Below are positions 40,403 through 62,252 of a stretch of 64,000 nucleotides of DNA, one piece after another. The translations under genes and the position numbers were made by a program. Under the pieces are notes generated by a model that was not told the DNA's origin, searched no databases, and saw only the letters and a program-made list of their open reading frames with translations. The stretch is from Rubripirellula amarantea (GTDB taxonomy: Bacteria > Planctomycetota > Planctomycetia > Pirellulales > Pirellulaceae), in NCBI RefSeq assembly GCF_007859865.1, contig NZ_SJPI01000001.1:372001-436000 (forward strand), read 5' to 3'. Within the stretch, counting starts at the first letter, position 1, and every line of letters starts with the position of its first letter.

Positions 40403-40639
40403 CGAGTCTGGGATTCACATCTCAATGCACGAACGGTCGACTACTGGACAAGCGCAAAAGCAACGCCTTCTAAAGCCCCATAAATATTGTGTAGAGGTCT
40501 TTGGTTGCTGCACTACGATCACGGCAATTTCGGTTGACGTGACAGTCAGTAGCAAGCAAGCGTGCTAGGAAGTCAACGCTAACGATTTCAGTCCCTGTTG
40601 CACTGCCAACCACACAATGAGTTGGCTACGATAATTCCC

Positions 40640-42865
40640 ATGACAATCAAACACGCCAGCAGTCCCGCAGTTGTCTGCGCGCCTTGCCAAGCCACCAATT
40701 CGCCGGAAGCAAAATTCTGCAAGGGATGTGGTCACGCCTTGTATGAAGCGTGTGCCAAGTGCAACGAGCCGGTACTTTTGGATCAGAAGTTCTGCAACGC
40801 CTGCGGCGCAGATTTAAACGCGATAATCGCGGCGAAGACCCAGCAGCAGGAAGAGAAACTTGCTTCCGCCGTGGAGGCTGCCAAACGCAGTGATTTCACG
40901 TATGCCATGGAAGCATTGGAACCGATCGCAAGTCTAGAAGACTTTCGATTCAGAGGATTGGCTGAGGTCGCCAAAAAAGCGTTGGGTCAAATCTCAACCT
41001 TGCAACGACAAAGCATCGCTAATGCTGATCAGATGAAAGCGTTGGCGTCAGAAGCGTTCCAGAACGACAACCGTGAAGACGTGGTCAAGTATCTGAAGAA
41101 TGTACCGGAGCCTTTGCTCGACGACGAGTTTCGGGTGATGCTGGCAGAATCAAAGAACTTTGTGCAAGAGTTACAGATCCTGAAAACCGAACTAACCCAG
41201 TCTAGCCAAAAGGGCGACTGGCTTTCATGCGGAGGCCTGATTGATCAACTATTGAACTTGTGTCCACAGAATCAAAAGTACGGAAAGACGGCTGAGACGG
41301 TGGCGTCAAAACTACTTTCCAAGGCCAAGAAATACTACGGTGCGCAGCGTTACGCGGATGCCGCCAAACACCTAGAAGCGATTCCCAAACAACACATTAA
41401 CGATGAAGCTCGGAAGCTAACGGACACAATCAACGATGTTCGCTGGTTATTCGAAACCATCGAGGCTGAGCCATACATGACTCCCGCGATGGGGCAAATG
41501 GCAGCGAAACTAGCTCAACTCGTCCCCGACGACGCTCGCTTGAAGAAGCTGTTAACGCGGCTGAAAGAAAAGAAGCAGCAACCATCCAACGAAGCACGTT
41601 GCCAACTCTCGCGGTCACTAGGCGATAGCACAGCATGGACGGGCGGCGAAGTGAAGGTACTTTCCCGACCGACTCAGTTCGAAGCAGAAGACCAGATCTT
41701 TAAGTCTAACGAAGGTGTTCTTTCCGTTGCGATTGGGCTTTGCATCCAAGGACTTGGTAAAGGCCGCATTTCGGACGAACTTTCTGGCAACAAAAAAGGC
41801 TTCTTCGGGCGAAGAAAGGCCCGGTCATGCTGGGGAATCGACATTGGTTCGTCCAGCTTCAAGGCGGTGCGAATGGAAGTGGTCGGCGAAAGCCTGCGTA
41901 TCACCGACTCGTTCGTGCGAAACATCTCACCAAGCCGAATACTTCAACCGAGCAGGGATCGCACTGAAGAAGACGAGAACTCGGCACTGCGAGGTGCGCT
42001 GGAATCAACGATCAAAGACTTCACTGAAACCTACGACTTAACCAAAGAAACGCTTTGGGGAAATCTACCGTCGTCGGAAATGACGACTCGATTCGTTCGG
42101 CTCCCCCCCTTGCCCGACAAGAAGGCCCTCCCTTTGATGGATGCCGAAATCACGAACCGAATCCCACTGCCTCTCGATGATCTCGTCGCCACCAGAACGC
42201 TTAGCCCATTCGACAAAGACGAAATCCATGGCCGAGCGGCCATTTTCTCTGCGGCACGAAAGAAGCGAGCAATGCGGCGTATGGAGTTGCTTGAGGGGCT
42301 TGGATTGAAACTTGATGGACTTCAAGCGGACGCGAACGCGATCGTCAACTTCGCCTACTACGAATTTGCGGACTTCTTTGGCCCCACGGTCGGTGACAAC
42401 ACCGAAGCCGAAACCGACGCTTCTGCCGTGAGCTTTGAAGACGAAACCCCAACGATTTGTCTTGTCGATGCTGGCGCAAATACCACAACCATCATTTTTG
42501 TCTCCTCAGAAACCCACTGGTTCTGGAGCCTGGACCATGGTGGTGAGCGACTAACGACCTCCTTGGCCCGATCGACAAAATCGACAACCGCGCAGGCAGA
42601 AGCACTTAAACGTTCACCAGCAAAACTGACGTCCCCCGAGTCTCAGTTTGCTCCTCTTGAAGAACGAATGGAGCAGCTACGCGTCCGCCTCAAGCAACTT
42701 AAGAAGGACGCCAAATCGCAGAACTCGCGATTCAAATTCGTGCAAACTTGGTGTGTGGGAGGGAACTGCCAAACTTACCAATGGATTCGACGAGTCCTGG
42801 TGTCGAGATCCGACGAAACAATGCAAACGAAGAACTCAAACGAGGCAGAACCGATCGGAACTTAG
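40640..42865 (+). CDS. Double zinc-ribbon protein fused to PilM-like ATPase fold
   Basis: The ATG at 40640 gives 741 residues. Two zinc ribbons open the protein: Cys13, 16, 27 and 30, then Cys38, 41, 52 and 55. About 300 mostly helical residues follow, with repeat-like blocks ('YADAAKHLEAIPKQHINDEARKL'). From ~397 a PilM-like actin-fold domain starts: 'CWGIDIGSSSFKAVRME' (phosphate 1), 'LDGLQADANAIVNFAYYEF', 'CLVDAGANTTTIIFV' (phosphate 2), and 'WCVGGNCQTYQWIRRVL' near the end. PilM in type IV pili binds ATP and the PilN tail under the inner membrane. The zinc-ribbon front is not part of normal PilM. No other pilus gene is adjacent; the type II secretion operon is 14 kb away. Confidence 0.83.
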   Translation: MTIKHASSPAVVCAPCQATNSPEAKFCKGCGHALYEACAKCNEPVLLDQKFCNACGADLNAIIAAKTQQQEEKLASAVEAAKRSDFTYAMEALEPIASLEDFRFRGLAEVAKKALGQISTLQRQSIANADQMKALASEAFQNDNREDVVKYLKNVPEPLLDDEFRVMLAESKNFVQELQILKTELTQSSQKGDWLSCGGLIDQLLNLCPQNQKYGKTAETVASKLLSKAKKYYGAQRYADAAKHLEAIPKQHINDEARKLTDTINDVRWLFETIEAEPYMTPAMGQMAAKLAQLVPDDARLKKLLTRLKEKKQQPSNEARCQLSRSLGDSTAWTGGEVKVLSRPTQFEAEDQIFKSNEGVLSVAIGLCIQGLGKGRISDELSGNKKGFFGRRKARSCWGIDIGSSSFKAVRMEVVGESLRITDSFVRNISPSRILQPSRDRTEEDENSALRGALESTIKDFTETYDLTKETLWGNLPSSEMTTRFVRLPPLPDKKALPLMDAEITNRIPLPLDDLVATRTLSPFDKDEIHGRAAIFSAARKKRAMRRMELLEGLGLKLDGLQADANAIVNFAYYEFADFFGPTVGDNTEAETDASAVSFEDETPTICLVDAGANTTTIIFVSSETHWFWSLDHGGERLTTSLARSTKSTTAQAEALKRSPAKLTSPESQFAPLEERMEQLRVRLKQLKKDAKSQNSRFKFVQTWCVGGNCQTYQWIRRVLVSRSDETMQTKNSNEAEPIGT

Positions 42866-43109
42866 CAGCCACTCAGCGCCGAACTGCTCAATTTCCCCAG
42901 CTAACACTGGCGAACAGATGCGACGTTTATCATGCCAGAAGAACAACTCCGAAGCTTTGTGACTATCAACGCATCAAAACGCCTCCATCAATACTTCACG
43001 GATAGTCTTAACTAACATCGCGTTCTAATTCTTTGCGACCGTCTTTATTGAGAGTACCGCAACCCACCGCTAGAAAGAACTGAGCTTGTTAGTTCCTCGC
43101 ATTTAAATA

Positions 43110-45707
43110 ATGGCCCCACCTGTTCCGCCCTCTCATCGCTGGCAGACCGATCTTCGACCCACTGAATCGCAGACACGGTTTTTTGATTCGATAGGCCTGC
43201 GAACGCCAACAGACTTTAGTCTGCCGATAGACATGGGTGAGTACACGATTACTCGCTTGCTCGGTCGCGGCGGTATGGGTGTGGTTTTTGAGGCGACGCA
43301 TCGTCGAATGCAACGGCGGGTGGCAATCAAGTTTGTCAGTTCTTCATCGAACCAAAGCTTCCATACCGAAGACCAATTCCTTGCCGAGATCCGGGCTGTA
43401 GCCAGACTGTTGCATCCTCGAATTGTGACAGCCTTTGACGCAGGACAATTCGGACAAACCGCCTACCTAGTGATGGAGTACGTTGATGGCTTCACCTTGA
43501 CTGAACTGCTATCCCAACGTGGGCCTCGATCTGTTGACGAAGCGTTGAACCTAACCGCTCAGGCGGCCGAAGGACTCAGGTACGCTCACCTGAATTCCAT
43601 CATTCATCGCGACGTCAAACCGAGCAACTTGATCATCACGCAGAGCGGAGAACTCAAGATCCTGGACCTGGGTCTGGCGTCGTTCTTGCAATCAGCCGTC
43701 CCAACAACGAGCCATGATCAGCTTCGCCAACAATCGGAGCCTATCTGCGGAACGCCGGAATTCATGTCGCCCGAACAATTTGAGGGACGCGAGCTGGACG
43801 AATCGGCTGACATATACTCGCTCGGATGCACCCTACATTTCCTGCTGACCGGTCGTCCCCCCTATACCGGCGAGCCAATCCCACTGCTCAAGCAACACTG
43901 CTGTGCAGAAATCCCTGCATTGTCGACATCGAAGCGCCCGGTGTCCGATGAGGTGCAGCAACTCTTCGAGACAATGATCGCTAAGGACCGTGCGAATCGT
44001 TTTTCCAACATGCAATCCGTGATTGAGGCAATTACCGAAATCGTGGGGTTACATGACGTCAAGCAACGGATACCTCCAGGACCATCGAAAGCCGGCGTCG
44101 CAGGAAGGCGACATGTCCCGGCGAGTGTTCCGCTGGAATCGAATTCATCACGCCCCAAGAAATCAGATTCCGCGAACTGCCATTCCGCAGCGATAACTTT
44201 AGCCGTCAACGTCGGTGCGAGATTCATTTCGGCAGCGTTGGCCAGCGAGAAAAGGGCGTCCATCCCTTTGCAGTTTGGATCCAAGAAGTCTCTCGTTTTC
44301 CCCGCTGCGTTTTCAGTTCAAGACAACAAGGTGGTGCTGGGGTCTCGTGCACTGCGTGCGATTGAGAATGGCGACCCTGGTGTTGCCCGCGCATTTGATG
44401 CCGTCCGCGGAGGACAATTGCTTCGTATCGGCGCCACAACTCACCCGTCGACCATGCCCTTGACAATGCTGTTCTCCCGACTTCGCTTCGATGCGGAAAC
44501 GTTCGCGGGGGCGATGGGCAGTGCCAAGGTCTTTGGTGCCGACGGAATCAGCGATGCTCAGCCCAGGATTGAATCGGTCATCATCAACGTGGCATCGTGC
44601 TTCGGACAAACAGTGCGCGAACGCTTGGTCGCGGCAGCGACTCTCGACGGCATAAAGAATGTGCGGTTACTCGATCGCAATATTGCTGCAGTGTTGTCGC
44701 AATTCACATTCAGCGACCTGAATTCTCGCCCACTACTGAATCAGGCCGCAGGATATTGGCTTGTGATTTCGATCGACGACATTGCGATGGAAGTAGCGTT
44801 ATTCGGGGTGAGTAACCGTCGCATCCACATGCTTTCGGTCGTCAGTCATCCGAACAGCAATCAATGTCGTTGGAACGGTAGGCTGCGTCGACACCTGGGT
44901 AAACAAATTGAGCGACATCGGCCAACCGATTCGCCGGGCCGAAGCAACCACCATTCGGAAGCTAGAAACTCTAGCGATGACTTAAGTGCGGAAGAACTTG
45001 AGCGGCGAGCTGCAGAATCGCTGCAGCTTAAGAATCGAATAGACGCCGGACTGGATTTACTGGCCGAGCAGGAAAGTTGTGGGATCGCTTTCAAATCGAG
45101 TGGCAAGCGAGTAAAAGCGGTCGTCACATCAATCACCATCAACGTGACATGCGCGGACCTGCTGGTCGAACTTGGTTCGGCCATCGCGAAAGTGCTTTCG
45201 GAATCCGGCGTCGATGCAGAAGAGATCGGATGCGTTCTAGCGATTGGCGGACTTCCGATGACGAGCGTGGTTGCAAATTTGCTACGCAACTTTGGTATTG
45301 AACCAGGCTGCACGCACGTATCATCCGCTGAGTTGGCAACGTCAGCGACAAAGATTACCCAAATTGATCGACTGTCCACTTCGCTGGCACCGCGACTGGT
45401 TCCCTGCTTGGGGCATGACATTGCTTGGACGAGCATCGCTGACGGAGACGAGGCTCCGTCGATCGAAGCCGCTAACCCCAATTTGCTGATGCCGCGTCTT
45501 ACATCCTTACCAGCGTCCGTTGTGCAGCGTATTCCCATGGTAAAAAATCAAGTCGGAAAAATCACATTACTGGAACGACCGGTCGCGAGGGACAGTGATT
45601 GGATCCCTTTCGATACGGTCGAGCTCAACGGCATCAGCGAGTGTGAGACCAAGGCGACGTTTGAAATAGACAGCGAAGGAAAACTAAGCGTTCGTCTTGA
45701 TCGTTAA
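43110..45707 (+). CDS. Ser/Thr protein kinase fused to degenerate Hsp70-like domain
   Basis: This 865-residue protein joins two large domains. Residues ~44-313 are a Hanks-type kinase with all key residues: 'LLGRGGMGVVFEA', Lys74 in 'VAIK', His166-Arg-Asp168 in 'IIHRDVKPSNLII', Asp186-Leu-Gly, 'GTPEFMSPEQF' and 'DIYSLGCTLHFLLTG'. From ~360 an Hsp70-like fold runs to the end. 'VNVGARF' (366-372) stands where Hsp70 has IDLGTT, and 'ISIDDIAME' (553-561) where it has DLGGGT, so nucleotide binding looks impaired. 'VLAIGGLPMTSVV' matches the VGGxxRxP region, and 'ATFEIDSEGKLSVRL' the substrate-binding domain strand. No membrane helix is seen. The start is the ATG at 43110. Confidence 0.85.
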   Translation: MAPPVPPSHRWQTDLRPTESQTRFFDSIGLRTPTDFSLPIDMGEYTITRLLGRGGMGVVFEATHRRMQRRVAIKFVSSSSNQSFHTEDQFLAEIRAVARLLHPRIVTAFDAGQFGQTAYLVMEYVDGFTLTELLSQRGPRSVDEALNLTAQAAEGLRYAHLNSIIHRDVKPSNLIITQSGELKILDLGLASFLQSAVPTTSHDQLRQQSEPICGTPEFMSPEQFEGRELDESADIYSLGCTLHFLLTGRPPYTGEPIPLLKQHCCAEIPALSTSKRPVSDEVQQLFETMIAKDRANRFSNMQSVIEAITEIVGLHDVKQRIPPGPSKAGVAGRRHVPASVPLESNSSRPKKSDSANCHSAAITLAVNVGARFISAALASEKRASIPLQFGSKKSLVFPAAFSVQDNKVVLGSRALRAIENGDPGVARAFDAVRGGQLLRIGATTHPSTMPLTMLFSRLRFDAETFAGAMGSAKVFGADGISDAQPRIESVIINVASCFGQTVRERLVAAATLDGIKNVRLLDRNIAAVLSQFTFSDLNSRPLLNQAAGYWLVISIDDIAMEVALFGVSNRRIHMLSVVSHPNSNQCRWNGRLRRHLGKQIERHRPTDSPGRSNHHSEARNSSDDLSAEELERRAAESLQLKNRIDAGLDLLAEQESCGIAFKSSGKRVKAVVTSITINVTCADLLVELGSAIAKVLSESGVDAEEIGCVLAIGGLPMTSVVANLLRNFGIEPGCTHVSSAELATSATKITQIDRLSTSLAPRLVPCLGHDIAWTSIADGDEAPSIEAANPNLLMPRLTSLPASVVQRIPMVKNQVGKITLLERPVARDSDWIPFDTVELNGISECETKATFEIDSEGKLSVRLDR

Positions 45708-45888
45708 AGACATCCACATCGACGTATCACCTGTGCGGCACAACGCCTAAGAGCAGTTCGCAAACAGATCGCGTGAAGAATGCGTTAAGAGCTAGGCGAA
45801 ATGGTTTGAATCGGTATGCGATTTCTAAAGCCTGTTTTAAGATTCCATCTTCAGTCGACGAACTAATCTTCCTCTTGGATCTGGGTCT

Positions 45889-48800
45889 ATGAACCGCTTA
45901 CCGTGGTGCTTCATTTTGCTTTTCAGCCTACTCTTGGCTGGCTGTGGAGGCGAGAGCAACGCTGACAAGTTCCAGCGTTTGGCCAAAGCTCGAGCTGAAA
46001 AACGCGCGGCGCAATCAACCGAAACCGAATCTGACACCGAATCAAAGAAGGTGCCGGAATCGAAAACCGACGAAGCGAACGCTGAGGTGAAACCTGAGCC
46101 GACGAAAGTTGATGTCGCAGTGGTCGAGAGCGATCAACCCAAGCCACTCTCCGCCGAAAAGAAGAAGGATGACGACGATGATTACAATCCCAACTTGGGT
46201 CGGAATTCAGCAAACGCAAACAGCGCTGGAAACGTCGAAACAAGTGACACCATTCTCGCCTTTGCAAAGAACGGCGAAAAAGTTGCTTACGCAGGAGCTA
46301 ACGAAACGGTAGGGATTTATGACGTCGGTTCCAAGAACCTGCAACGCCGGATTTACAATCCATCGATTGTTCCATCGGCACTTGCGATTGGCGAACAAGG
46401 CAACGTGATTGCAGTGGGCGGTAGAGCAGGCAATTTCAAGGTGTTCTCGCTTGAAACCACCGAGGGGCTTGATCGTTTCCAAGAAGCCCGAGTTCGCCGG
46501 CTCGACGCTCAGCCGGCGAGATTGGCGCACGAACAACCGATCAGCGCGATCGCGATCGACGAAGCGAATCAGTTGGTCGTTACCGGTGACGACGTTGGAA
46601 ACGTGCGACTCTGGTCGAGTGTGGCAGACGAAAATCCCCTGCAACTTCGCGGCAACGCCGAAGTTTATAAGGGCATACTCAGCTACCAAAACGGGGCAAC
46701 CGTGTTCGCAGCCACATCGAGTGGTGTCTCGTACTGGGATGTCCAAGGAGGGCACACAAACGCGGTTACATTGTCCACTCAGTGGCGTGACGAGCCTACC
46801 GTCATGGCTACTGGTTTAGATGGAAAGGGTCTCGCGGTTGGGAACGCAGCCGGACGAATCATGCTGTGGAATCCCAAAGCTGACACGCTCGTCGAAGAAT
46901 CCATCACTGCTCATCAGGATCCAATCGCTGCGATTGGTTTTTCGAGTGGCTCCAAGGCGATGTTGTCGGTTTCCGACCGAGGAGAAATCCGTAGGTGGTC
47001 GTTACCGATCAAGCCGCAAACCGGCATTAAGATGGCCGAAGCAACGCCAACGGTGATACCGGTAAACAGTGCCGATTTGGTGGCAACGTTCAGCCGCGAC
47101 AGCAACCTTGATCTGTATTCACTCTCGGACGGCTCTGCGGTCCGCCGACACACGATCCCTCGTGGCAGGTTAATAGCAGGCGGTACTAACAGCGACGGAA
47201 ACTTAGTTGGCCTCGCTTCGGATGACTCGAAAGTTTACTTCCAAGACGAATCACGAAAGACGATCTCGTTCGTCAATTTTGATTCGCCTGTGAAGCACTG
47301 GAATGCGATCCCCGACCATCCGGAATTATTCTGTTTCCAATCCAATGATGGCCAAATAGGCGTTGGCCGGTACCCACATCGTTCTCCTGAGCAGATGGAT
47401 GGAATCGTCGCGCAACAGATGATCGTCAACGAAAGCGGCACACAGATGTTGGTAAGCCGCGGTACGGAAGTGCTGTTGTATGACCTGCCCAGTGGAAACC
47501 TAAGAAACCGGTCTAGGTCTGAGAATGGTGAAATCACAGCCATCGCTTTCGACCAAAACATCGCATTGATTGGAACTTCAAGGGGCGACGTTTCGATCTG
47601 GCCTTTCACGGTCGACCGTTCTGCCTTGAAGGTGGTTGGCAACAAGGTTCACCCCAATGCAGTCAGTAATATCGGCATCACTCGTTTCGGACACCTTTGG
47701 TCGAGTGATGCCAGTGGCCAAACGTTTCAAACCAGTATCGAATCACCTACAACAGATTTAGAGAAACGACCAACAAGCATTTCAGCACGAGGCCTAGCAT
47801 TGCTAGGTGAAGACGGTGTTCTTGCAGTTGACCGTTCGGGAAAGTTGCATCTTGCCAAGAATATCGTTTCAGAAATGGGACCGAACTCGTTTCAACCGAT
47901 CGACGCACTCGATGCCAAAGAACTATTTGCCGGCGATGGATGTGTGTTGATTAAGAATAAGACTCCGGATCAATGGACCATTCTAGGACCGGAGGCGAGA
48001 ACGATCGCCGAGATTGCAACTGGCAAGGGAACTGTGATTGGCAATGCCAGCGTCTCCGCCGACGGAGCCATTTTTGTGGACGATGTGGGAACAGCATCAA
48101 CTATTCGTTGGGGAAATCTTCCTGCGAAGTCAGAGTTGCTGAACACTGGTCGCTTAAACGAATTGATATGTTCCAACGATGGAACCATCGCGGTCGCCAT
48201 TGATGAAGCGGGTCGCTATTGGAAAATCAGCAACAGCAATAGTCCTCAAGAGTTAAAGATACCTGTCGGTTCACAACTTCTTGCGGTCACCAACGACGGC
48301 AAACTTGCAACGACGACACCTACCGGCGGCACGGTCTTCGATTTAAATCAGATACCCGGCTTATCGCCCCAACCACTGCCCGACTTTTTCTCAAGTGCCA
48401 TCACAGGCTGCTTCGATCACAGCGGAGAAGCTCTCTTCATCCGACTTAGTGCGGGTCAGCTCATTGAGGTCGCGGTTGCTTCGGGTAAATTCCGTAGCAT
48501 TGCGGAAACGGGCCCCCTTCGAAACGTTCTGCAAATTGGCGCGTTGGCGACGACCCTGTTTGTTGTTGAAGAGAATGGCGATTGCCAGTTGCTTTCGACG
48601 AGCAATGGAGAATCCATCAAGTCGTTTGACACTCCAGCTATGAGCAATGCAGTCGCGACAAACAACTCGGTTTACTTTGTCAACAGAAATGGCGAATTAG
48701 TGCAGGTTCAAGCGAAGGATGGACAAAGCCAGGTCCTGCTCGCCGGATTGGACACAGCCCAGTCGCTGGCGTTGTCACCTGATCAGTCAACGGCAATCGC

Positions 48801-51800
48801 TTGGGACAAAAAGGGGATCATGCAAACCATTCGGCTGGGCAGTGCCCCCCTGAGTGTCCAAACTGCAGCGACACTGCCGTTGGATTCTATCGCTATGCTT
48901 TGGCACCAATCCAAGGGATGCCACGTTGTCGATAACCAAGGAACAATCACGGAAGTGTTTCCATCAGAGATCGCGACATGGAACACCGCCGACGCAAAGA
49001 AAATGGTCAATGTCGCCGCTAGCGGCTCATGGGCCGTAGGAACCAGCAATGCGGGTAAGCTCCTCGCATCGAAGTTCGGTGCTGGAATCGCCCCCGATAC
49101 AATCTCGACTCAGTGGACCATTCATGATGTCGAGAGCCTGGAATCAGGAAGGTTTGTAATCAGTTCTCTGGATGGAAAAGTTGCTACGTTTGATGCCGCT
49201 TCCAAAGCTGTTGCGAACGAAATTGATACCCATGCAAAGTTGAAAGATATCTACTCGGCCGCTCCCAACGGCGAGGTAGTAATTCAAACAGACACGATTC
49301 CTGTCGTGGTAGATTTTGCTCGGAGTTCGCATGATCGAGTGGACGCATCACTTGCAGATGCTCTCTCCACTGGCACGTTGTGCCCGACCAATCATGCCGG
49401 TGGAAGTTGGTGCATCGCGAACTCCAATGGCGAAACAATTCTTTCGAAACGACTAAACAACGTCGACGCCGGAGAGGGATTTTCCGTCGCGAGAAAGCCC
49501 AACGGCGTTTTAGTTTTCGCTGGAGGCTTGGTCTGGACTAGCAATGGTGGATTGATATCAGCCAGACGCGAGAACGGAAAACTTCATGGAGAATGGAAGG
49601 TCTCGCAGAGTGACGTGACACGGCTCGCCATCGCCCCGAGGAACCGAGGCTTTGCCGCTTACGATGCGTCGGGCAATTTGATGTTAGTACCGATCGAGAG
49701 CTCTCAACAAGAAATTACCCAAGTCAAGTTGCAGGTCGGCAAAGCAAATTCCAAGGACGACGTTTCGCTGGCATGGTCTCCCGATGGCCAACATATTGTT
49801 GTCGGTGAGGGTCGACGGCTCTTTGTCGTGAATGCTCGATCGGGCACATTGGATTCAACTCACGCGTTACCAAAAGCGATGGGCAGCATCGCGGGTTGGG
49901 ACCGCACAGCAGTCCTGCTTCACGATGTTCGAGGGCAGGTGTTCCGCGTCCAGCTTGCCGAGATATCTTGGAAAGCCAAACCCGACGCGGCCATCGAATC
50001 GTTTTTTCCCGACGAATTGGGCACCCGCCTGGTTGTGGCCCTGGAAAGTGGCGACGTCATCAAACTGGACATTGCAACTGGCACTGAAGTCTCTCGCCTT
50101 CGCGTTACTCCAACGCGCCTCATTGCGGCCTCACCAATCCCTAGCACAGGATCGTTCGTAGTACTCGACGATCAATCCGAGGTTCATCTGGTAGACGACG
50201 ATGGTGAGGTCGCCCTGCTGCCGATCAAGTCAAGCTCTTCTCTCACCGGGGTTTGCGGAGGCTACCAAGGTCAACACGTATATGCAACGACTCTGGACGG
50301 CGATGTGCTGATGTGGCCAATTGATAAGCTCGACAAGCCTGGGCGAGTCATCCCCTGCAGCTTAAAGGCAGAAACGGTTCATTCAGTTTCGCGATCTCAA
50401 CTATTGATCAGCAATCCAACATCGCAGGAGCTAGCACTGGTTGCTTCCGACGCGACCATCGAAACGCTTCGTCCTGCGGGAGCGAAAATTACCGGCGCCT
50501 GCGTAGCCGCCGACGCGACGCTCGTCGCGTTCTGCGACAACTCGCCTAACGTCACGCTTTATTCGAACCGACGTGGCGAAAGCAACATTTTTGTCGACGA
50601 AGCCGACATTTCTTTCGCGAGCGTCAATCCGTCGGGTCAATCACTAGCTGCGATCGCGACTACGCATGAAACAGGTTCAACACGACTGTTATTGTTTGGT
50701 GTGAATGATGGCGAAAAAGTTGCCGATGTGGAGCTTCCAACGTTAGCTCGTGACGTCATCCATTCTGCCAACGGAAAAGTCGTCGCGGTTACCTTGCGTG
50801 ACAACACCGTTCATCTATTCAAGTCCGAGACTCTGGAAAGCATGGAAGTCGTGGGGCCAACCGCTGGACTACAAACGGTATCGCTAACCGAAGATGGCTC
50901 TTCAGTGCTAATGGGGTTGAGTGAAGGCACAATCAAAATCGCGGCACTATCTTCGCTTGGTAAGACTCGATCCAGCGAAAGTGAAATTGCTTCTTTGAGT
51001 TTTCACGGCAATGGAAAGTACGTTCTAAGCAGTGACAAAGGAGGTAATATCGCGCTTTGGGCAGTGGAGGATTTCAATCATCCTAGAGCCACGCTTGAGG
51101 GTACCGACACACCTGTCTTACAGTCGAGCGTCGCACCGGACGGACGCTACGTCGCTGCGGTTTACCAAGGTGACGAAAACTTGGTTCGTGTATGGGACAT
51201 TGATCAAACGGTGAAGGCAGGAAGCAAAATTGAGCCGTCGTTGGTCATCACACATCAATCCGTTCCCACTTCAGCCGACTTCACGTCTGATTCGCGATAC
51301 CTTTTGGTAGGTGGCGCTGATGGTGTGATCCGTGCTTGGAGCATTGACGAGAACCGTGAGATCGCTCAGTTTTCCGGTCATCAAGGATCGGTCGTTGACA
51401 TTGCGCCTTTGGCAGACTCGCTCGCGTTTGTGAGCGGAGGTGTCGATCGTTCCATCCGTTCCTGGAAGTTCCCGACCAATCTGCCTGCTCCGGGCGGCCA
51501 AATCCCTAAAGGTGCTTTAGCGGATTCTACCGACGTCTATGATCTTCGGCGTCCAACGACACTGAAGCAATTGTCAGAGACCGACCCCTTGGAAGCTGCT
51601 CGCCAGGCTTTGATCTCGGGCGCAAAAACGACCGAGATTGTCGATCTGATGAATATTGGTGAAGACGTCAAAGACAAGGTTAAGTCAACGATTGCATCGG
51701 TCATGAAATCCGAGCAAGATCGCCGAATTAGCGCTAAAGAACTCTCGCAACGACGCAGAGCCCTCGCCAAGACCCAGGAGCGTCTGCACTCGGCCGAGCA

Positions 51801-53421
51801 AGCGGAGACCTTATCTATGTTTGCCGATGGTTTTAGCAACTTGACGTTTGTGGGCGAAAGTAACTTTGTATTTGGGATGGATCGAAATTTCCGCCCGGTC
51901 AAACTCCTGTTTTCCGATCGGTTTCTGTACGCCGCACGGCCTTCCGCTCGAACTCCTGCTGCTCGCAAACGCGGTCGTTATCGGAACGTGAACGAAGTCA
52001 GGGACATCGCCGGTAAAAAGACGGATCGCCAAGGCAACTTGCTTGATGAAGATGGCAAAGTGATCAAGGACCCCGAGGCGGAATTGAACCTTGATGGTGA
52101 CAATGGGTCATTGCTCAGTTGGGATTATCGTTTCTCACAATTGCAAGCTCATGCTTGGTCGATCGACGATTTGAACGTGCGGCAACTGTTGGCGATGCCT
52201 GGCGGAGCGGGTGTGTTTACAGCTCCACAAATGGTGGTGTTCAATCAAGACGGTTCCTCTCGCCTACTGGGAAACGCTGCCTCCTTCGCCGTCTCGGATC
52301 AACCTACTCCTGCTAAACAGTACGTTGCGTTGGGGACCGCCGGCACGGTCCGAAACGAGGAAAACATTCTTACGGTGTTCGATATCGACACGCTGAGTGA
52401 CGAATCAGCCGCACCCACTTCTCAGTACCGAAGCTACGAAGGTGTCGTGACGGCAATGGCATTTGCTCACAATGCACCTTATGTCGCCTTCTGTGTTCGC
52501 GAGCGTGCAGTTCATCGCTTGTTCATTGCCGATACGGAAACGCTACAGCTTCAGAAGCTGGAAGAATTCAATCATTCAAAGCCGTGGATCACTGAGGATG
52601 GCAATATAAACGGATCATTTAAGGTGGATCCAGACGCTGCTCGAGGGATCGATGCCATAGCTTTCTCGCCTGATGATTCCATGCTGATCGCGCACGGGCA
52701 CTACGACGAGAAGCTCTATAAGTTTTCTCGTTGGGACTTTAAGTGGGACGGAAATCAGCTGGCGAGTTTTCAACGATCGCGCAAGGAACACACAAAAACC
52801 GATGGGCCGTTTTTCAGCGTGGTTGGTGATGAACCGATCAAGTTCATCTCACGACCGCTCCGCGAGCACGAACGCGGTCCCAATGACTCCTACAGTGAAT
52901 TACGACGTACTGCTGGTGCATCGCCCAAGATTGTGGTGCAAAGTAGCCGCGGTTTCCACGTCGTGAACCTAAATACGGCACTAGCCGAACGAAACATCCC
53001 TTATCTTAAGACGCACTTCGGTCGTCCAGAGTATGCGTTTAGCAACGATGGTCGCTGGTTGTGCATGGGCGATGACAATGGCAAGGCGTTTATTTACGAC
53101 TTGCTTGATGGATCCACTTATGGCCTAACCATCGATGATGGCATAGAGCAACTTATTTCAGATAGATCGGTCGCGCGTCCAACGCTGGTCGATCGGCCCG
53201 CCCATTCGGGCCCAGTCGTCGGCGTCGCATTTTCGGATCCCGATCCCGGCCGAGATTACCCTGCATTCGCAGCTACATTTGGCGAAGAAAACAAAGTCAA
53301 AGTTTGGGAACTGTACCCTATCTTAGACCCTGATTCGGGGATCCGTTCTAGGAACTGGGTTCCACAGATCAAGCGTGAGATCTATCGCGACAACGACGAC
53401 AAACGAAGCCGAAGGCGTTAA
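45889..53421 (+). CDS. Giant WD40-type beta-propeller lipoprotein
   Basis: The gene encodes 2510 residues, the largest product in the window. The start has a lipoprotein signal, 'LLFSLLLAGC', with Cys19 as the likely lipidated residue, followed by ~100 charged low-complexity residues (Lys/Glu/Thr/Asp). From ~115 to ~1880 the sequence is a long series of WD40-type blades with recurring 'G.I.LW', 'V.VWD' and 'R.W.I' ends ('IMLWNPKA', 'IRRWSLPI', 'VRVWDIDQ', 'IRAWSIDE', 'IRSWKFPT'). A helical, coiled-coil-like segment follows at ~1905-1975, then more propeller blades to the end. Several propellers in tandem are likely. It should be outside the cytoplasmic membrane. It is 5 bases ahead of the next gene. 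Confidence 0.88.
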   Translation: MNRLPWCFILLFSLLLAGCGGESNADKFQRLAKARAEKRAAQSTETESDTESKKVPESKTDEANAEVKPEPTKVDVAVVESDQPKPLSAEKKKDDDDDYNPNLGRNSANANSAGNVETSDTILAFAKNGEKVAYAGANETVGIYDVGSKNLQRRIYNPSIVPSALAIGEQGNVIAVGGRAGNFKVFSLETTEGLDRFQEARVRRLDAQPARLAHEQPISAIAIDEANQLVVTGDDVGNVRLWSSVADENPLQLRGNAEVYKGILSYQNGATVFAATSSGVSYWDVQGGHTNAVTLSTQWRDEPTVMATGLDGKGLAVGNAAGRIMLWNPKADTLVEESITAHQDPIAAIGFSSGSKAMLSVSDRGEIRRWSLPIKPQTGIKMAEATPTVIPVNSADLVATFSRDSNLDLYSLSDGSAVRRHTIPRGRLIAGGTNSDGNLVGLASDDSKVYFQDESRKTISFVNFDSPVKHWNAIPDHPELFCFQSNDGQIGVGRYPHRSPEQMDGIVAQQMIVNESGTQMLVSRGTEVLLYDLPSGNLRNRSRSENGEITAIAFDQNIALIGTSRGDVSIWPFTVDRSALKVVGNKVHPNAVSNIGITRFGHLWSSDASGQTFQTSIESPTTDLEKRPTSISARGLALLGEDGVLAVDRSGKLHLAKNIVSEMGPNSFQPIDALDAKELFAGDGCVLIKNKTPDQWTILGPEARTIAEIATGKGTVIGNASVSADGAIFVDDVGTASTIRWGNLPAKSELLNTGRLNELICSNDGTIAVAIDEAGRYWKISNSNSPQELKIPVGSQLLAVTNDGKLATTTPTGGTVFDLNQIPGLSPQPLPDFFSSAITGCFDHSGEALFIRLSAGQLIEVAVASGKFRSIAETGPLRNVLQIGALATTLFVVEENGDCQLLSTSNGESIKSFDTPAMSNAVATNNSVYFVNRNGELVQVQAKDGQSQVLLAGLDTAQSLALSPDQSTAIAWDKKGIMQTIRLGSAPLSVQTAATLPLDSIAMLWHQSKGCHVVDNQGTITEVFPSEIATWNTADAKKMVNVAASGSWAVGTSNAGKLLASKFGAGIAPDTISTQWTIHDVESLESGRFVISSLDGKVATFDAASKAVANEIDTHAKLKDIYSAAPNGEVVIQTDTIPVVVDFARSSHDRVDASLADALSTGTLCPTNHAGGSWCIANSNGETILSKRLNNVDAGEGFSVARKPNGVLVFAGGLVWTSNGGLISARRENGKLHGEWKVSQSDVTRLAIAPRNRGFAAYDASGNLMLVPIESSQQEITQVKLQVGKANSKDDVSLAWSPDGQHIVVGEGRRLFVVNARSGTLDSTHALPKAMGSIAGWDRTAVLLHDVRGQVFRVQLAEISWKAKPDAAIESFFPDELGTRLVVALESGDVIKLDIATGTEVSRLRVTPTRLIAASPIPSTGSFVVLDDQSEVHLVDDDGEVALLPIKSSSSLTGVCGGYQGQHVYATTLDGDVLMWPIDKLDKPGRVIPCSLKAETVHSVSRSQLLISNPTSQELALVASDATIETLRPAGAKITGACVAADATLVAFCDNSPNVTLYSNRRGESNIFVDEADISFASVNPSGQSLAAIATTHETGSTRLLLFGVNDGEKVADVELPTLARDVIHSANGKVVAVTLRDNTVHLFKSETLESMEVVGPTAGLQTVSLTEDGSSVLMGLSEGTIKIAALSSLGKTRSSESEIASLSFHGNGKYVLSSDKGGNIALWAVEDFNHPRATLEGTDTPVLQSSVAPDGRYVAAVYQGDENLVRVWDIDQTVKAGSKIEPSLVITHQSVPTSADFTSDSRYLLVGGADGVIRAWSIDENREIAQFSGHQGSVVDIAPLADSLAFVSGGVDRSIRSWKFPTNLPAPGGQIPKGALADSTDVYDLRRPTTLKQLSETDPLEAARQALISGAKTTEIVDLMNIGEDVKDKVKSTIASVMKSEQDRRISAKELSQRRRALAKTQERLHSAEQAETLSMFADGFSNLTFVGESNFVFGMDRNFRPVKLLFSDRFLYAARPSARTPAARKRGRYRNVNEVRDIAGKKTDRQGNLLDEDGKVIKDPEAELNLDGDNGSLLSWDYRFSQLQAHAWSIDDLNVRQLLAMPGGAGVFTAPQMVVFNQDGSSRLLGNAASFAVSDQPTPAKQYVALGTAGTVRNEENILTVFDIDTLSDESAAPTSQYRSYEGVVTAMAFAHNAPYVAFCVRERAVHRLFIADTETLQLQKLEEFNHSKPWITEDGNINGSFKVDPDAARGIDAIAFSPDDSMLIAHGHYDEKLYKFSRWDFKWDGNQLASFQRSRKEHTKTDGPFFSVVGDEPIKFISRPLREHERGPNDSYSELRRTAGASPKIVVQSSRGFHVVNLNTALAERNIPYLKTHFGRPEYAFSNDGRWLCMGDDNGKAFIYDLLDGSTYGLTIDDGIEQLISDRSVARPTLVDRPAHSGPVVGVAFSDPDPGRDYPAFAATFGEENKVKVWELYPILDPDSGIRSRNWVPQIKREIYRDNDDKRSRRR

Positions 53422-53426
53422 GTCCC

Positions 53427-55427
53427 ATGGCTTCCCCCATCAATCCCTATGCCGAAGTATTGGGCCTGCCTGAATCGAATTCGCGGCCGACCTATTACGA
53501 ACTGCTTGGAATCGCCAGCGGCGAAGATAACGAGCGGAGCATCAAAGCCGCCTACTATCAGCGGGTAGCTCAAGTGAGCGTTTTGCAAGGTGGCAGTCTT
53601 GCCAACACCTGTGATGTGTTGCTCGCAGAACTAGCAGAAGCTCGAGATTGTTTGGCGGATGCGGAACAGCGACATGCTTACAACCAACGCCTGGAAAAAA
53701 AGCCGGGGCAACATGGCATCATAAATTCCAAGGAGCGAAAATCCCGACAAAATCGGTCAGAACAATCGATTGTGCAAACCGTTCGCATTAGCCATTCCAA
53801 GGAGGTGGGTCAGTTCCTATTCGCCCCCGAATCAGGTGAAGCCGAACTGCCTAATGATCCTGAGTCAAAAGTGGAAGCCACGATCGGTGGGCATGCCGCC
53901 AATGGGACTGACCCCTTCGCGACCCTGAACTATGGCGAAATGGGTCATGCAACAAAAACCGCCACGCCTACACTTGGTGCGGCGAAGACAACGAAAAAAG
54001 CAAGCGGTGTCGACCGTGAGATCGTTAAGACGATTGCAACGCAATACAAGAAGCCGACGCTACTAGCACGCATGCTCCCCTGGCGAACCGCTCAAGAACT
54101 GGTGAAAGAACTCTTTGCTAGAGGTGACGCCACAGACCTTCAACAACAATTACTTCGAGACAACCAACTCGAATCCTTGGTTATTGGCTCTTATTTGATC
54201 GAAGCGGCTCTGCCCCGAACTAGGCTGCAGGCGATCGTTGGTGCGTTGAGACTGACTAACCAGGATGTCAATAGTATCCATTCGGGACACAGCTTCCTGG
54301 CGTCACGAATGAGTGATGGTGAGTTGGTTTCGTTGCGAATCTTGCCGCGGACATTTCGCGACCATCTGCGTTCCCTGCGAACGTGGACTAACCGATCCAA
54401 CCAAATCTCTTCACCTGCGGTTATGAAAACGCTTGAGTGTGGTTTTGATCAAGGTCGAGCATTTGTGGCAACAGAGTATCGCGTTGGCGAAGACTTGCGA
54501 ACTCTCGTTAACCGTCTAGGACCACTATCACTAGCCCAGGCATTGAATGTGATCATTCAGTGCTCTCAATGCCTCGAGGCAGCGTTGGATACTGGAATCC
54601 AACATCCCGCACTCCATCCCGGTAAGATCCTCGTCGATTCCAAAGGTAAGCTCAGCATCAGGCATTTCGCTTTGGACAATTGCATTTGGACGAATCGACT
54701 TGAACAAGGAAACTTAGCGCAAGTCATTCCGTTCTTGCCTCCCGACAACCTTCAGTTCGTCGCGGCGGAAACGTGCGTGATTGGACTGTCAACCGACAAT
54801 ACCCGAACACTGCAAAACAAGTCCTTCATTAGCACAGACTGTCGAGCCAATATCTATTCACTGGGCTGCCTGCTGTACTACCTGTTGACAGGCGAAGCTC
54901 CGATCAAGGGAACATCCGCTAACGAAATTGCAAAGGGGCAAGCCGAAAGATTGCTCCCCCGTGTGACGACCAAGCGATCGGGTATACCCGAAGTCATAGA
55001 TCAATTGATTGGTCGAATGACCGCTAAGCATCCTGAGCGAAGATTCGATAGCTACAGCCATCTGCGAAAAGCCTTATCCGAGGTTTGTCGCATCGCAAAA
55101 TTGAGCGGGGAAGATGTACGACGCGGATGGAACGGCACAGGGCTGGATGATCGGATTCCGATCAAACGTCGTCGCGGTGTGAAACGCTTACACGTTGGAC
55201 GTTTCATCAAAAGCGTTTCGCTCGCAGTCGTACTCGCCACACTGCTGGGCTATGCGGGTATCCAAGGATATCAAGCAATTCTTCCCCAGGTCCAAGAGGA
55301 TCACCAAGCGCCCAAGATCGATCCAACTTCAAAACCTAAGCGTGAACCACAGCCAAAAGTGTTCCAGTTCAACGACGTTGGCGAGATCCCGGAAGTCGAA
55401 AGTTTTGACGCGTTTCAACTCGATTGA
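53427..55427 (+). CDS. J-like domain fused to pseudokinase, one membrane helix
   Basis: The 666-residue protein starts with 'INPYAEVLGLPE' and 'YYELLGIASGEDNERSIKAAYYQRVAQV', the J-like module common at planctomycete N-termini. The His-Pro-Asp loop needed to stimulate Hsp70 is absent (Ser-Val-Leu-Gln follows the second helix), while the third helix ('CLADAEQRHAYNQRL') is kept. Residues ~283-575 form a kinase fold without the catalytic residues: Arg304 stands for the ATP-binding Lys, 'HPALHPGKILVD' at 393-404 for HRDxKxxN, and 'RHFALDN' for the DFG region. 'DCRANIYSLGCLLYYLLTG' is kept. A membrane helix lies at ~595-615, followed by a 47-residue acidic/Pro-rich tail. It is co-transcribed with the giant propeller gene. 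Confidence 0.85.
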   Translation: MASPINPYAEVLGLPESNSRPTYYELLGIASGEDNERSIKAAYYQRVAQVSVLQGGSLANTCDVLLAELAEARDCLADAEQRHAYNQRLEKKPGQHGIINSKERKSRQNRSEQSIVQTVRISHSKEVGQFLFAPESGEAELPNDPESKVEATIGGHAANGTDPFATLNYGEMGHATKTATPTLGAAKTTKKASGVDREIVKTIATQYKKPTLLARMLPWRTAQELVKELFARGDATDLQQQLLRDNQLESLVIGSYLIEAALPRTRLQAIVGALRLTNQDVNSIHSGHSFLASRMSDGELVSLRILPRTFRDHLRSLRTWTNRSNQISSPAVMKTLECGFDQGRAFVATEYRVGEDLRTLVNRLGPLSLAQALNVIIQCSQCLEAALDTGIQHPALHPGKILVDSKGKLSIRHFALDNCIWTNRLEQGNLAQVIPFLPPDNLQFVAAETCVIGLSTDNTRTLQNKSFISTDCRANIYSLGCLLYYLLTGEAPIKGTSANEIAKGQAERLLPRVTTKRSGIPEVIDQLIGRMTAKHPERRFDSYSHLRKALSEVCRIAKLSGEDVRRGWNGTGLDDRIPIKRRRGVKRLHVGRFIKSVSLAVVLATLLGYAGIQGYQAILPQVQEDHQAPKIDPTSKPKREPQPKVFQFNDVGEIPEVESFDAFQLD

Positions 55428-55477
55428 TTAGTAGCGATCGCTTACGATCTCTACCAAACTTCAACCCATGGAACGTG

Positions 55478-55990
55478 ATGACAGATAAAACCTTCCCAAA
55501 AAGCGGACGCATAGCAGCCGTCGACTTTGGTAGCGTGCGGATTGGGATCGCGGTTTGTGACCCCGACCGAATTTTGGCCAGCCCGCTGGAAATTCATCCA
55601 GCCGAACGATGGCGTGAATCGGAAGACTACTTCCGAGGCCTCGTGAAGTCAGAAAAACTGGTGGGCTTTATCGTGGGCTTGCCCATTCACCTCGATGGAG
55701 GCGAAAGCCAGAAGAGCAAAGAATGCCGCGAATTCGCGGTTTGGCTTGCCGAGGTGACAGAAATGCCAACTCGGTTATTCGACGAGCGGTTTACAACGGC
55801 GGACGCGAAACAAAGGATCGCCGGTGCGGGCTACACTCGCAAAAAAAAGAAGGATCGCATTGATGCTATCGCAGCTTTGGTCCTCCTCGAATCGTTCATC
55901 GAGGCGTGCCGTTATCGTGGTGAAATTGCGGGGACGCCGGTCTCATCCGCCGCAGAAGGCGGCGAAAGTCTAGATGACGAATCGAACTGA
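55478..55990 (+). CDS. ruvX: Holliday junction resolvase-like RuvX (YqgF)
   Basis: The ATG at 55478 has 'GGAAC' ahead of it and gives 170 residues, near the usual size; a TTG at 55424 overlapping the upstream stop would add 18 atypical residues. 'IAAVDFGSVRIGIAVCD' is the RNase H-fold start with its catalytic Asp, 'VGFIVGLPIHLDGGESQKS' the second block, 'TRLFDERFTTADA' the third and 'KDRIDAIAALVLLESFI' the fourth with its Asp. The protein takes part in pre-16S rRNA 5'-end maturation in E. coli and is named for its resolvase fold. It is probably read through from the upstream operon, though functionally unrelated to it. Confidence 0.93.
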   Translation: MTDKTFPKSGRIAAVDFGSVRIGIAVCDPDRILASPLEIHPAERWRESEDYFRGLVKSEKLVGFIVGLPIHLDGGESQKSKECREFAVWLAEVTEMPTRLFDERFTTADAKQRIAGAGYTRKKKKDRIDAIAALVLLESFIEACRYRGEIAGTPVSSAAEGGESLDDESN

Positions 55991-56944: not shown

Positions 56945-59419
56945 TTGTTCGACTCACGCGACTTCGCGACTGCCACTCGCAAATTCACTCACGCAATCAT
57001 CTTGGTCTGCTTATTTTTGGCAGGTCAGACGACCGTCCATGCGCAGAACCGTGACGACGACTTGGTTGAGTTGAACCTAGCGGGAAAGGTCAGTCTCTCG
57101 AATCTCGTCGAAGCGATCTCACGCCAAATCGATGTGCGTTTTCTTTACAGTGCCGATCTGGCGGATAAGCAAGTCACGATTTACACGCCCACTCAACTCC
57201 CTCGCCGAGCGCTCCCTGTCCTGATTGGTAGTTTGCTTAAGAGTGAAGAACTAGCGGTCGTTGACTCGGACGTGCCGGGTTGGAAACGAATCGTCGAAGT
57301 CAGCAAGATGGTCCCTTATGCTCAAACCGGCGACCCGAACGAAGCCATTCGTCGAAGTGGACCTGCGGCCGCAGTCACACAGGTCATTCCGATCGAGAAC
57401 CTGAACATCACGGGAGTCAAGACATCGTTCAGCCCGTTCCTTTCCAAAGGGGCAAACTTCGTAGCGATTCCCGAAAGCAATTTGATCATCGTGACGGACT
57501 ACGCCGAGAACGTTCGAACTTTGGTGGAACTGTTAAAAGTCATTGACCGACCGGTGGGTCAACCGACCATTGATTTCTATGAAGTCAAGAACCGTTCCAC
57601 AGACGAATTGATTGACCAAGCAGAAAGCCTATTAGTTCAGCAAGCGGGCAACGACCAAGCCAAAGATTTCAAACTATTCAACGACGCTTCCGGGAAGCGA
57701 ATCGTGGTGGCGGGAGAGAAAGGAATCGTCGAACGTGCGTTAGCACTGCTTCAACGGCTCGACACGGGGACAGGATTCAGAACGCGTGCTTACCGTCTAC
57801 AGAATGTGTCAGCGGACCGCATCGAGAAACTTATTCGCGGATTAGTTCAGAACAACGGCGAAGAAAAAGCAAACGCGAACCTCGAGACAACGATTGACGA
57901 AGAGGGCAATTTATTGATCGTTCGGGCTGCGCCGGAGGTTCATCAGCAGATCGAAACACTGCTGCGAGAGCTAGACCAGCCAGTCAGCGCCGCCGAAAGC
58001 CCGATCCAATTCTACAAACTTAAGAATGCCAACGCGGTAGAAGTGCTTTACTCGCTACTAGCGCTTCAGCAAGCAGCAGGCATTGGAGGCAACGCGCAAG
58101 CGGGAGGCGTGGGAGCATTTGGCTCGCTCGGCGGATTGAACGTAGGCGGTGTCCTGCCGGCTGGTTTCACCGCAGCTACGGGCTTTGGGCAGACAGCCAT
58201 TCAACCATCGGCGTTCGGAGCCACCCAGGGGCAAAACGTCAGACTGCCGTTTAATGATGGAAGTCGTGACCAAGAAGCCATTGGTTCGGCCATGCAAAAT
58301 CAAAACCAAGCGTTAAGCCCACTCATTGGTGGCGTTAACACCGCGGGCGGCTTCGCCGGAGGTGGATTGCTTGGCGGCGGCTTAGGAGCAGGCGGTTTGG
58401 GTGGCGGACAAGTGGCAACGCTCCCTGGTGGTGCCCGCGTCTCGGCTGATGTGGCAACGAATAGCCTGATCGTTTTCGCCCCGTCATCCGTGCAGCCTCT
58501 CTACGAAAAACTGATCAAGTCTCTCGATCAAAGACGTCCTCAGGTGATGATCGAGGCGGAAATCGTGGCCGTCAACACAAGCGACAACTTCTCGCTCGGC
58601 GTCGAAGTATCGATCGGCGACCGAACGGGCTCCAAGAAGCTATTCAAGTTCACCTCCTTTGGACTGAGCGAAATTGATGTCGATACCGGCGCACTCACCG
58701 TCAACCCAAGCCTGGGATTCAATGGGGTTTTGATTGATCCTGAGGTTGCCGACGTGATTGTGCAAGCGTTGTCGTCTCACACTCGCAGCCGCGTTCTGGC
58801 TTCGCCAAAGATTCTGGTCAACGACAACCAGACGGGAACGCTCGAGAGCATCGCCAGCGTACCGTTCCAAAGCATCAACACGATCAACACGATCAGCAGC
58901 CAGAGTCTGGGGGGGAGCCAAGAAGCCGGAACAATCATTACTGTCACACCGCACATTAACGAGGACGACCACCTACAATTAGAATTTGAGGTGGAGTTCA
59001 GCTCGTTTGCAGCGACGGGCGGCTCAGCAACGCTTCCGCCGCCGCGGCAGATTGATCGTGTCGGCAGTGTCGTCACAATCCCCGACGGTCAAACGATCGT
59101 GGTGGGTGGTCTGAAACGAAACGGCGAACGCGATACCTTCACCGGGATCCCGTGGGCCGAGAAGATCCCGGTGCTGCGTGAACTGACCAGCCTATCGACT
59201 TCCGATAAAGACTCCACATCGTTTTTCCTGTTCATCCGACCGAAGATCCTGCGAGACTCGCGTTTTCGTGACCTGCAATACCTTTCGGACATCGATGCCT
59301 CCGATGCACAAATCCAAAGTGACGCTCCTACTAGCAGGCCAATCCTGATCCCATGCGAGAAGCCCCCCAATTCGATGATCCAGACGCCATCAGAACGGAT
59401 GATGCTTTCGCAGCCGTAG
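56945..59419 (+). CDS. gspD: Type II secretion secretin GspD
   Basis: The first start-type codon in frame is a TTG at 56945, giving 824 residues; no in-frame ATG fits. A signal peptide follows ('AIILVCLFLAGQTTVHAQ'). Residues ~35-370 hold N-domains with 'NLAGKVSLSNLVEAISRQ', 'TSFSPFLSKGANFVAIPESNLIIVTDYAENV' and three repeats of 'VIDRPVGQP', 'LLQRLDTG', 'LLRELDQP'. A Gly-rich insert spans ~375-500. The secretin core at ~510-780 has 'NSLIVFAPSSVQPLYEKLI', 'QVMIEAEIVAVN', 'VLASPKILVNDNQTG' and 'IPDGQTIVVGGL'. It forms the outer-membrane channel. The start of gspE lies inside this gene, a 67-base overlap. Confidence 0.93.
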   Translation: MFDSRDFATATRKFTHAIILVCLFLAGQTTVHAQNRDDDLVELNLAGKVSLSNLVEAISRQIDVRFLYSADLADKQVTIYTPTQLPRRALPVLIGSLLKSEELAVVDSDVPGWKRIVEVSKMVPYAQTGDPNEAIRRSGPAAAVTQVIPIENLNITGVKTSFSPFLSKGANFVAIPESNLIIVTDYAENVRTLVELLKVIDRPVGQPTIDFYEVKNRSTDELIDQAESLLVQQAGNDQAKDFKLFNDASGKRIVVAGEKGIVERALALLQRLDTGTGFRTRAYRLQNVSADRIEKLIRGLVQNNGEEKANANLETTIDEEGNLLIVRAAPEVHQQIETLLRELDQPVSAAESPIQFYKLKNANAVEVLYSLLALQQAAGIGGNAQAGGVGAFGSLGGLNVGGVLPAGFTAATGFGQTAIQPSAFGATQGQNVRLPFNDGSRDQEAIGSAMQNQNQALSPLIGGVNTAGGFAGGGLLGGGLGAGGLGGGQVATLPGGARVSADVATNSLIVFAPSSVQPLYEKLIKSLDQRRPQVMIEAEIVAVNTSDNFSLGVEVSIGDRTGSKKLFKFTSFGLSEIDVDTGALTVNPSLGFNGVLIDPEVADVIVQALSSHTRSRVLASPKILVNDNQTGTLESIASVPFQSINTINTISSQSLGGSQEAGTIITVTPHINEDDHLQLEFEVEFSSFAATGGSATLPPPRQIDRVGSVVTIPDGQTIVVGGLKRNGERDTFTGIPWAEKIPVLRELTSLSTSDKDSTSFFLFIRPKILRDSRFRDLQYLSDIDASDAQIQSDAPTSRPILIPCEKPPNSMIQTPSERMMLSQP

Positions 59420-61017: not shown

Positions 61018-61021
61018 CGCC

Positions 61022-62227: not shown

Positions 62228-62252
62228 ACCCAAACGTGGAAACCACTCGCCC

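Follow-up and report, generated by a model that had tools for sequence, protein, structure and literature searches.

A fusion of an N-terminal Hanks-type kinase to a C-terminal Hsp70 homologue was reported from Pirellula in 2005 by Krupa and Srinivasan (PMC1262709). In the ribosome-associated complex (RAC), the Hsp70 relative Ssz1 lacks the lid and ATP hydrolysis, keeps the β-part of the substrate-binding domain (SBD-β) and pairs with the J protein Zuo1 (PMC7083937). In mycobacteria, the membrane protein MviN, a pseudokinase, is phosphorylated by the Hanks kinase PknB and acts in envelope control by recruiting a partner (PMC12599244), and the pseudokinase STRAD controls the active kinase LKB1 by binding (PMC2686265). 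Here we describe a locus of Rubripirellula amarantea for which MviN–PknB, as the bacterial case, Ssz1–Zuo1 and STRAD–LKB1 may offer the nearest working models, each for a single step. The window, that is, the whole 64,000-nucleotide stretch of DNA that was analysed, lies in a 6.95 Mb genome; between its positions 40640 and 55427, four long genes run in the same direction, followed by ruvX and a type II secretion locus.

The four genes encode a zinc-ribbon protein with a PilM fold (gene 1), a kinase fused to a degenerate Hsp70 (gene 2), a giant propeller lipoprotein (gene 3) and a membrane protein that joins a J-like domain to a pseudokinase (gene 4); all features are given in window coordinates and lie on the forward strand. 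Hanks kinase signalling, pseudokinase scaffolds and degenerate Hsp70 proteins are known kinds; what is unusual is a kinase with a dead Hsp70 facing a dead kinase with a dead J domain. We tentatively propose that the locus encodes a signalling unit of the cell envelope in which an active kinase is combined with a pseudokinase. In the comparisons below, genome counts include this genome, the family set comprises 241 genomes, and each protein database search scored about 8,000 candidates and listed up to 120 of the best.

Kinase fused to a degenerate Hsp70

Gene 2 (43110–45707; 865 amino acids (aa)) starts with a Hanks-type Ser/Thr kinase domain (43242–44015) whose catalytic motifs are intact: the Gly loop, the VAIK Lys, HRDxKPxN and the DFG-type Asp, here within DLG, are present both in the window protein and in its counterpart in G207, a genome of another genus. 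Across 36 full-length kinase–Hsp70 relatives, the Gly loop and the HRD motif occur in all 36 and the Lys in 35. Judged by these motifs, the gene 2 kinase looks active, the only one of the set that does.

The second half of the protein (44205–45704) is a degenerate Hsp70. Its fold matches, RAC structures included, indicate a nucleotide-binding domain (NBD) and SBD-β, the latter at 45462–45695 with limits set by alignment. The phosphate loops are lost from the window protein. The Hsp70 motif of phosphate loop 2, DLGGGT, was found in 0 of 43 aligned rows, the position aligned with the catalytic Glu of BiP's INEPTAA is Arg in 43/43, and both Arg residues of an RLLDR stretch in the NBD-like part are likewise invariant (43/43). 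The SBD-α lid is absent, as the window protein terminates directly past the SBD-β-like strands. With a lidless Hsp70 relative that carries SBD-β, the locus resembles RAC. By contrast, Ssz1 still binds ATP and the J domain of Zuo1 stimulates another Hsp70 (PMC7083937), whereas in our locus the HPD motif is gone from the J-like domain, and both candidate partners are fused to kinase folds, one of them with a transmembrane (TM) helix.

Two families of kinase–Hsp70 fusion can be told apart. The window form, which we call type 2, is separate from the type-1 form and more degenerate: in type 1, phosphate loop 1 is partially lost, with I-D-x-G retained in most rows. SBD-β is retained in both. With the best six candidates per genome scored, 2 of the 241 family genomes have a clear type-2 protein (E below 1e-220), and the next candidate reaches 1.3e-57; 23 genomes pass a threshold of 1e-30, and our count of two follows the jump from 1.6e-227 to 1.3e-57. 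Since few best candidates per genome were scored in this and the following genome searches, weak orthologues could be missed. One further type-2 protein, P0122, was among the database matches listed.

Type-1 fusions are common, with 200 database proteins above threshold for the Hsp70 half. The best 120 of these 200 are nearly all kinase plus HSP70 domain and, on our own reading, six are HSP70 alone; their database names include 'Hsp70 family protein' and 'PrkC/PknB'. All 13 type-1 loci that were fetched lie apart from the propeller, and 11 of them (L082–L092) share one neighbour family, porphobilinogen deaminase in this genome. The Pirellula fusion has the same domain order and fits the type-1 family of this genome and many relatives; the passages drawn from that report mention neither a loss of loops nor a pseudokinase partner or propeller (PMC1262709). 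This genome's own type-1 copy (L082) has a further set of secretin-, GspE- and GspF-like genes next to it (L082:2011-10748; G000 contig C2), and GspE-like matches also occur near the type-1 loci L087 and L091.

J-like pseudokinase with one membrane helix

Gene 4 (53427–55427; 666 aa) encodes a J-like domain (53490–53684), a long linker, a pseudokinase domain (54177–55094) and a single TM helix (55194–55280; helix 590–618 in the AlphaFold2 model) preceded by basic residues. A low-confidence stretch follows, and then a conserved C-terminal tail (55389–55424; PxVESxDAFxL-like) in which Pro, Asp and Phe are invariant in 7/7 proteins. Homologues come from R. amarantea (63%, the closest among the matches listed), R. 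obstinata (39%), P0002, P0003, G207 and G077.

The kinase fold of the pseudokinase domain is evident from PknB matches. None of the seven proteins retains the Lys, the HRD Asp, the catalytic Asn or the DFG Gly, and three, the window protein included, have lost the DFG Asp as well. The J region matches DnaJ homologues and solved J domains at 5.6e-6 when a 5-row profile is used, and single sequences score under the Pfam cut-off. None of the six proteins with the domain (the window protein and five homologues) carries HPD. Identity of these five homologues to the window protein is 51–77% in the J domain, 12–33% in the linker and 33–75% in the pseudokinase, and in each of the five the J domain exceeds the pseudokinase. 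Being more conserved than linker and pseudokinase, the J domain seems to be under constraint despite the loss of HPD.

The domain belongs to a planctomycete family with an N-terminal motif of about DPYHKWLGIPPxxQPPNHYRLLGI followed by the J helices; gene 4 shares both and differs by its fusion to a pseudokinase and a TM helix. Family members were matched in 12 of 13 genomes searched, with 19 matches in G040 alone. HPD was found in 0 of 30 J-like stretches (i-Evalue 2e-5 or better) from 29 of 30 loci returned, L215 being left out and three spurious sub-matches dropped; the profile, having been built from HPD-less members, is biased towards such hits. Eight of ten family proteins scanned (loci L198–L226) had no Pfam family at 1e-3, and in the proteins scanned the J-like part clears no Pfam cut-off. 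In one of the loci, L200, the J-like domain is fused to MshEN.

Fold and profile matches thus bear out the preliminary description of this DNA, which had taken the Hsp70-like and J-like regions for genuine relatives of those folds. Its fold assignments, the lost residues, the one active-looking kinase, the single-TM pseudokinase and the lipoprotein all hold as well. To our knowledge, MviN has no J or Hsp70 domain, and STRAD–LKB1 has neither chaperone nor membrane domains. Gene 4 and MviN share a membrane protein with a pseudokinase domain and a possible link to a Hanks kinase; they differ in their motifs, which are VALT and Lsidhpsr in ActPs3 and VSLR and HPALHPGK in gene 4 (PMC12599244). STRAD–LKB1 is eukaryotic and can serve only as a model for how gene 4 might act on gene 2 (PMC2686265).

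Propeller lipoprotein

Gene 3 (45889–53421; 2510 aa) combines a lipoprotein signal peptide and lipobox (45889–45945; LLLAGC, by eye) with long WD40-like stretches that suggest a multi-propeller. Its C-terminal region (51589–53418; main matches at 37–67% identity) is a fairly specific marker of the module. Scoring the best five candidates per genome, we found this marker in 12 of the 241 family genomes, two of them weak (G107, 8.5e-21; G160, 9e-4). In a sample of 396 genomes from the order, which overlaps the family set and for which the best three candidates were scored, 5 carried the marker at an E-value no higher than 1e-10; G267 lies outside the family, and the other four, which include this genome, lie within it. 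A broad spread of the propeller is rejected on this count.

Gene order across relatives

The preliminary description expected the four genes to occur together in relatives. All four in a row were found in this genome only, among the loci read (the contigs of P0001–P0003 and P0122 being excluded), but genes 2–4 form a conserved core: in G207, kinase–Hsp70, propeller and J-pseudokinase likewise follow one another in this order on one strand, with gaps of 45 and 8 bp and about 30–57% identity to the proteins here. In both type-2 genomes, therefore, the kinase–Hsp70 gene lies directly upstream of the propeller and J-pseudokinase. The proposed four-gene module is supported in part, by this three-gene core; PilM mostly occurs apart from kinase genes.

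When the best four candidates per genome are scored, 4 of the 241 family genomes have a pseudokinase orthologue that is distinct from the kinase background (the strongest of the others reaches 3.9e-36), and in 4/4 it comes directly after the propeller. R. obstinata (G021) has PilM, propeller and J-pseudokinase in a row without the kinase gene, and G077 has the propeller and then the pseudokinase. Comparison of these gene orders suggests that the conserved core is the propeller with the J-pseudokinase, which the type-2 kinase has joined in two genera. Taking genomes as independent, the chance of such nesting is 2e-4 for the kinase and 4e-6 for the pseudokinase, values that overstate significance because the genomes are related.

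Proposed function and alternatives

If the genes form a joint signalling complex, as we infer, the propeller lipoprotein would be exported and anchored, as its lipobox suggests, and would present an outer sensing or binding surface. The J-pseudokinase would span the inner membrane once, with its J-like domain and pseudokinase in the cytoplasm and its short conserved tail outside, where the tail may touch the propeller. Candidate targets for phosphorylation by the cytoplasmic type-2 kinase would include the pseudokinase, its long linker and PilM. The residues lost from the degenerate Hsp70 and the HPD-less J domain suggest that they no longer run a chaperone cycle; these remnants may have been kept as protein-binding parts that join kinase to pseudokinase or recruit clients. 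PilM and the type II secretion genes would be long-standing neighbours beside which the unit was built.

Several observations weigh against such a unit. The gaps of 244 bp before gene 2 and 181 bp before gene 3 give no sign of a single transcript (gene 4 follows after 5 bp), and promoter and terminator scans did not rise above shuffled sequence (2 promoter-like sites versus 10.0 expected; 21 terminator-like versus 21.0). The trio occurs in two genomes only, and the propeller of G206 adjoins neither partner. R. obstinata has no type-2 kinase beside its propeller and J-pseudokinase, and none was found elsewhere in its genome, where a type-1 kinase–Hsp70 is present; the pairing with the type-2 kinase is thus not obligatory. 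The pseudokinase of G077 lacks a J domain, which counts against that domain being essential, and the DFG Asp is kept in 4/7 pseudokinases, so residual metal or nucleotide binding is possible in those. Finally, HPD-less J-like proteins are so common in planctomycetes that a J-like domain may adjoin an Hsp70 relative by chance.

The strongest rival, which we consider rather unlikely, is plain neighbourhood without joint function: the kinase genes would be lineage-specific insertions that signal elsewhere, next to a propeller that belongs with PilM and the envelope locus. The absence of the type-2 kinase from R. obstinata fits this explanation, as do five genomes of the same genus (G004, G007, G010, G015 and G016) in which the propeller stands directly before ruvX with no kinase gene between, a further point against the signalling unit. 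The 68 kinase-type matches in this genome also make adjacency by chance easier. It accounts less well for a second genus with the trio in unchanged order and orientation at that level of divergence, and for a propeller that adjoins the pseudokinase wherever the orthologue is found.

Regulation of the adjacent PilM and type II secretion machinery, in which the kinase would control PilM or GspE and the propeller would be a cargo or docking protein, seems improbable. Here PilM, propeller, ruvX, GspD, GspE, GspF and GspG are successive, PilM lies near a secretin gene in five relatives (L061, L064, L066, L075 and L080), and the type-1 paralogue of this genome is also beside secretin, GspE and GspF-like genes. 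Yet PilM and propeller are on different contigs in G207, G206 and G077 (a contig end cuts the downstream neighbour of PilM in G077), and with GspL- and GspC-like genes of its own, both weak matches, the locus probably has no secretion part left for PilM to supply.

About as improbable is a role as a holdase or in quality control of exported or membrane proteins, in which the SBD-β-like part and the J-like domain would still bind unfolded clients and the kinase would report the load. It would draw on the retention of SBD-β in both fusion families, on the adjoining secretion system and on yeast Ssz1, a lidless, non-hydrolysing protein described as an active chaperone (PMC7083937). Against it, the ATPase loops and the lid are absent, as is the HPD that would drive a true Hsp70, and no heat-shock gene was found among the genes scanned in 37.9–63.6 kb. 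An anti-phage or conflict system is hardly credible, and we reject the defence reading: the PD-T4-6 and mad6 models that the kinase domains match hit the generic kinase domain, the propeller's single match is a repeat model, and no nuclease, toxin or other effector domain appears in the Pfam tables of the set (for the propeller, the best 25 of 38 families).

Within the proposed signalling unit, a more specific version holds that the pseudo-Hsp70 and the HPD-less J domain still recognize each other, and that this ATP-free contact couples kinase to pseudokinase under the propeller receptor. We regard it as unlikely. Were it true, planctomycetes would have converted the Hsp70–J interface into a kinase–pseudokinase coupling device, perhaps many times, given their many HPD-less J-like proteins and kinase–pseudo-Hsp70 fusions; an Hsp70–J partnership stripped of its chaperone chemistry would have been reused across the bacterial envelope to wire kinase to pseudokinase. 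These two large families would gain a first function, and the locus would provide a direct test system. In the open-licence literature we found no functional study of either family, and titles and opening lines of abstracts pointed to no paper on the type-2 trio. The text of PMC11032199 contains no Hsp70, DnaJ or pseudokinase, and that of PMC12599244 no planctomycetes, DnaJ or Hsp70.

PilM protein and neighbouring genes

Gene 1 (40640–42865; 741 aa from ATG, or 755 aa from a TTG at 40598) encodes a double zinc ribbon (40676–40807), a helical part and a PilM_2/FtsA-like Pfam domain (41834–42616). The eight ribbon cysteines (C13, C16, C27, C30, C38, C41, C52 and C55) are invariant across 12 aligned sequences. 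The PilM_2 match of 31.4 bits against a cut-off of 27 places the protein in the PilM fold family, and the PilM subfamily TIGR01175 stays far below its cut-off (31.2 versus 133 bits). In L078 (8780-11299; G039), a zinc-ribbon PilM protein has its own J-like N-terminal region.

Strong matches to gene 1 occur in 17 of 22 genomes of the genus, this one included, and in one genome of another genus. We read the neighbourhood in 14 of these 18 strongest loci (G002, G005, G006 and G011 left out), with Pfam names of neighbours taken from one or few members and the remaining members placed by sequence clustering. PilM is followed by a ~740-aa DUF1559-type lipoprotein in seven, by the propeller in six and by a contig end in one (G007); the six include our locus, where the kinase gene intervenes, and a fragment at a contig edge in G004. 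The pair is often followed by ruvX and the secretin. In 11 of the 14 loci the gene before PilM is of the DUF1573 type and usually follows DUF1559 prepilin-like genes; no DUF1573-type gene stands there in our locus or in R. obstinata, and the G015 contig begins inside PilM. PilM accompanies the propeller or another lipoprotein, mostly without kinase genes; its older association is with the propeller and not with the kinases.

Either the propeller or a DUF1559 lipoprotein of ~740 aa can fill the position behind PilM (45889-45990 here; L061, L062, L063, L064, L066 and L075). By eye, the two share a similar post-lipobox sequence, about CGxSxxDxMMRxAxxR, so that an outer domain appears to have been exchanged on a retained anchor.

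Downstream, ruvX (55424–55990) shares four bases with gene 4, provided that the TTG listed as its start is correct; it is a conserved neighbour that probably has no part in the function of the module. The type II secretion locus opens with a GspD-like secretin (56945–59419), followed by GspE, GspF and GspG genes (59353–62681; Pfam and NCBIfam). Genes with weak GspC and GspL matches, below Pfam cut-offs, lie further downstream, beyond the window. With a GspL-like gene in the same locus (GspL_C, 25.5 bits against a cut-off of 29.6), PilM is unlikely to be a missing GspL. In G107, two PilM matches of equal score lie on contigs C6 and C129 and may reflect an assembly duplicate or contamination (9%).

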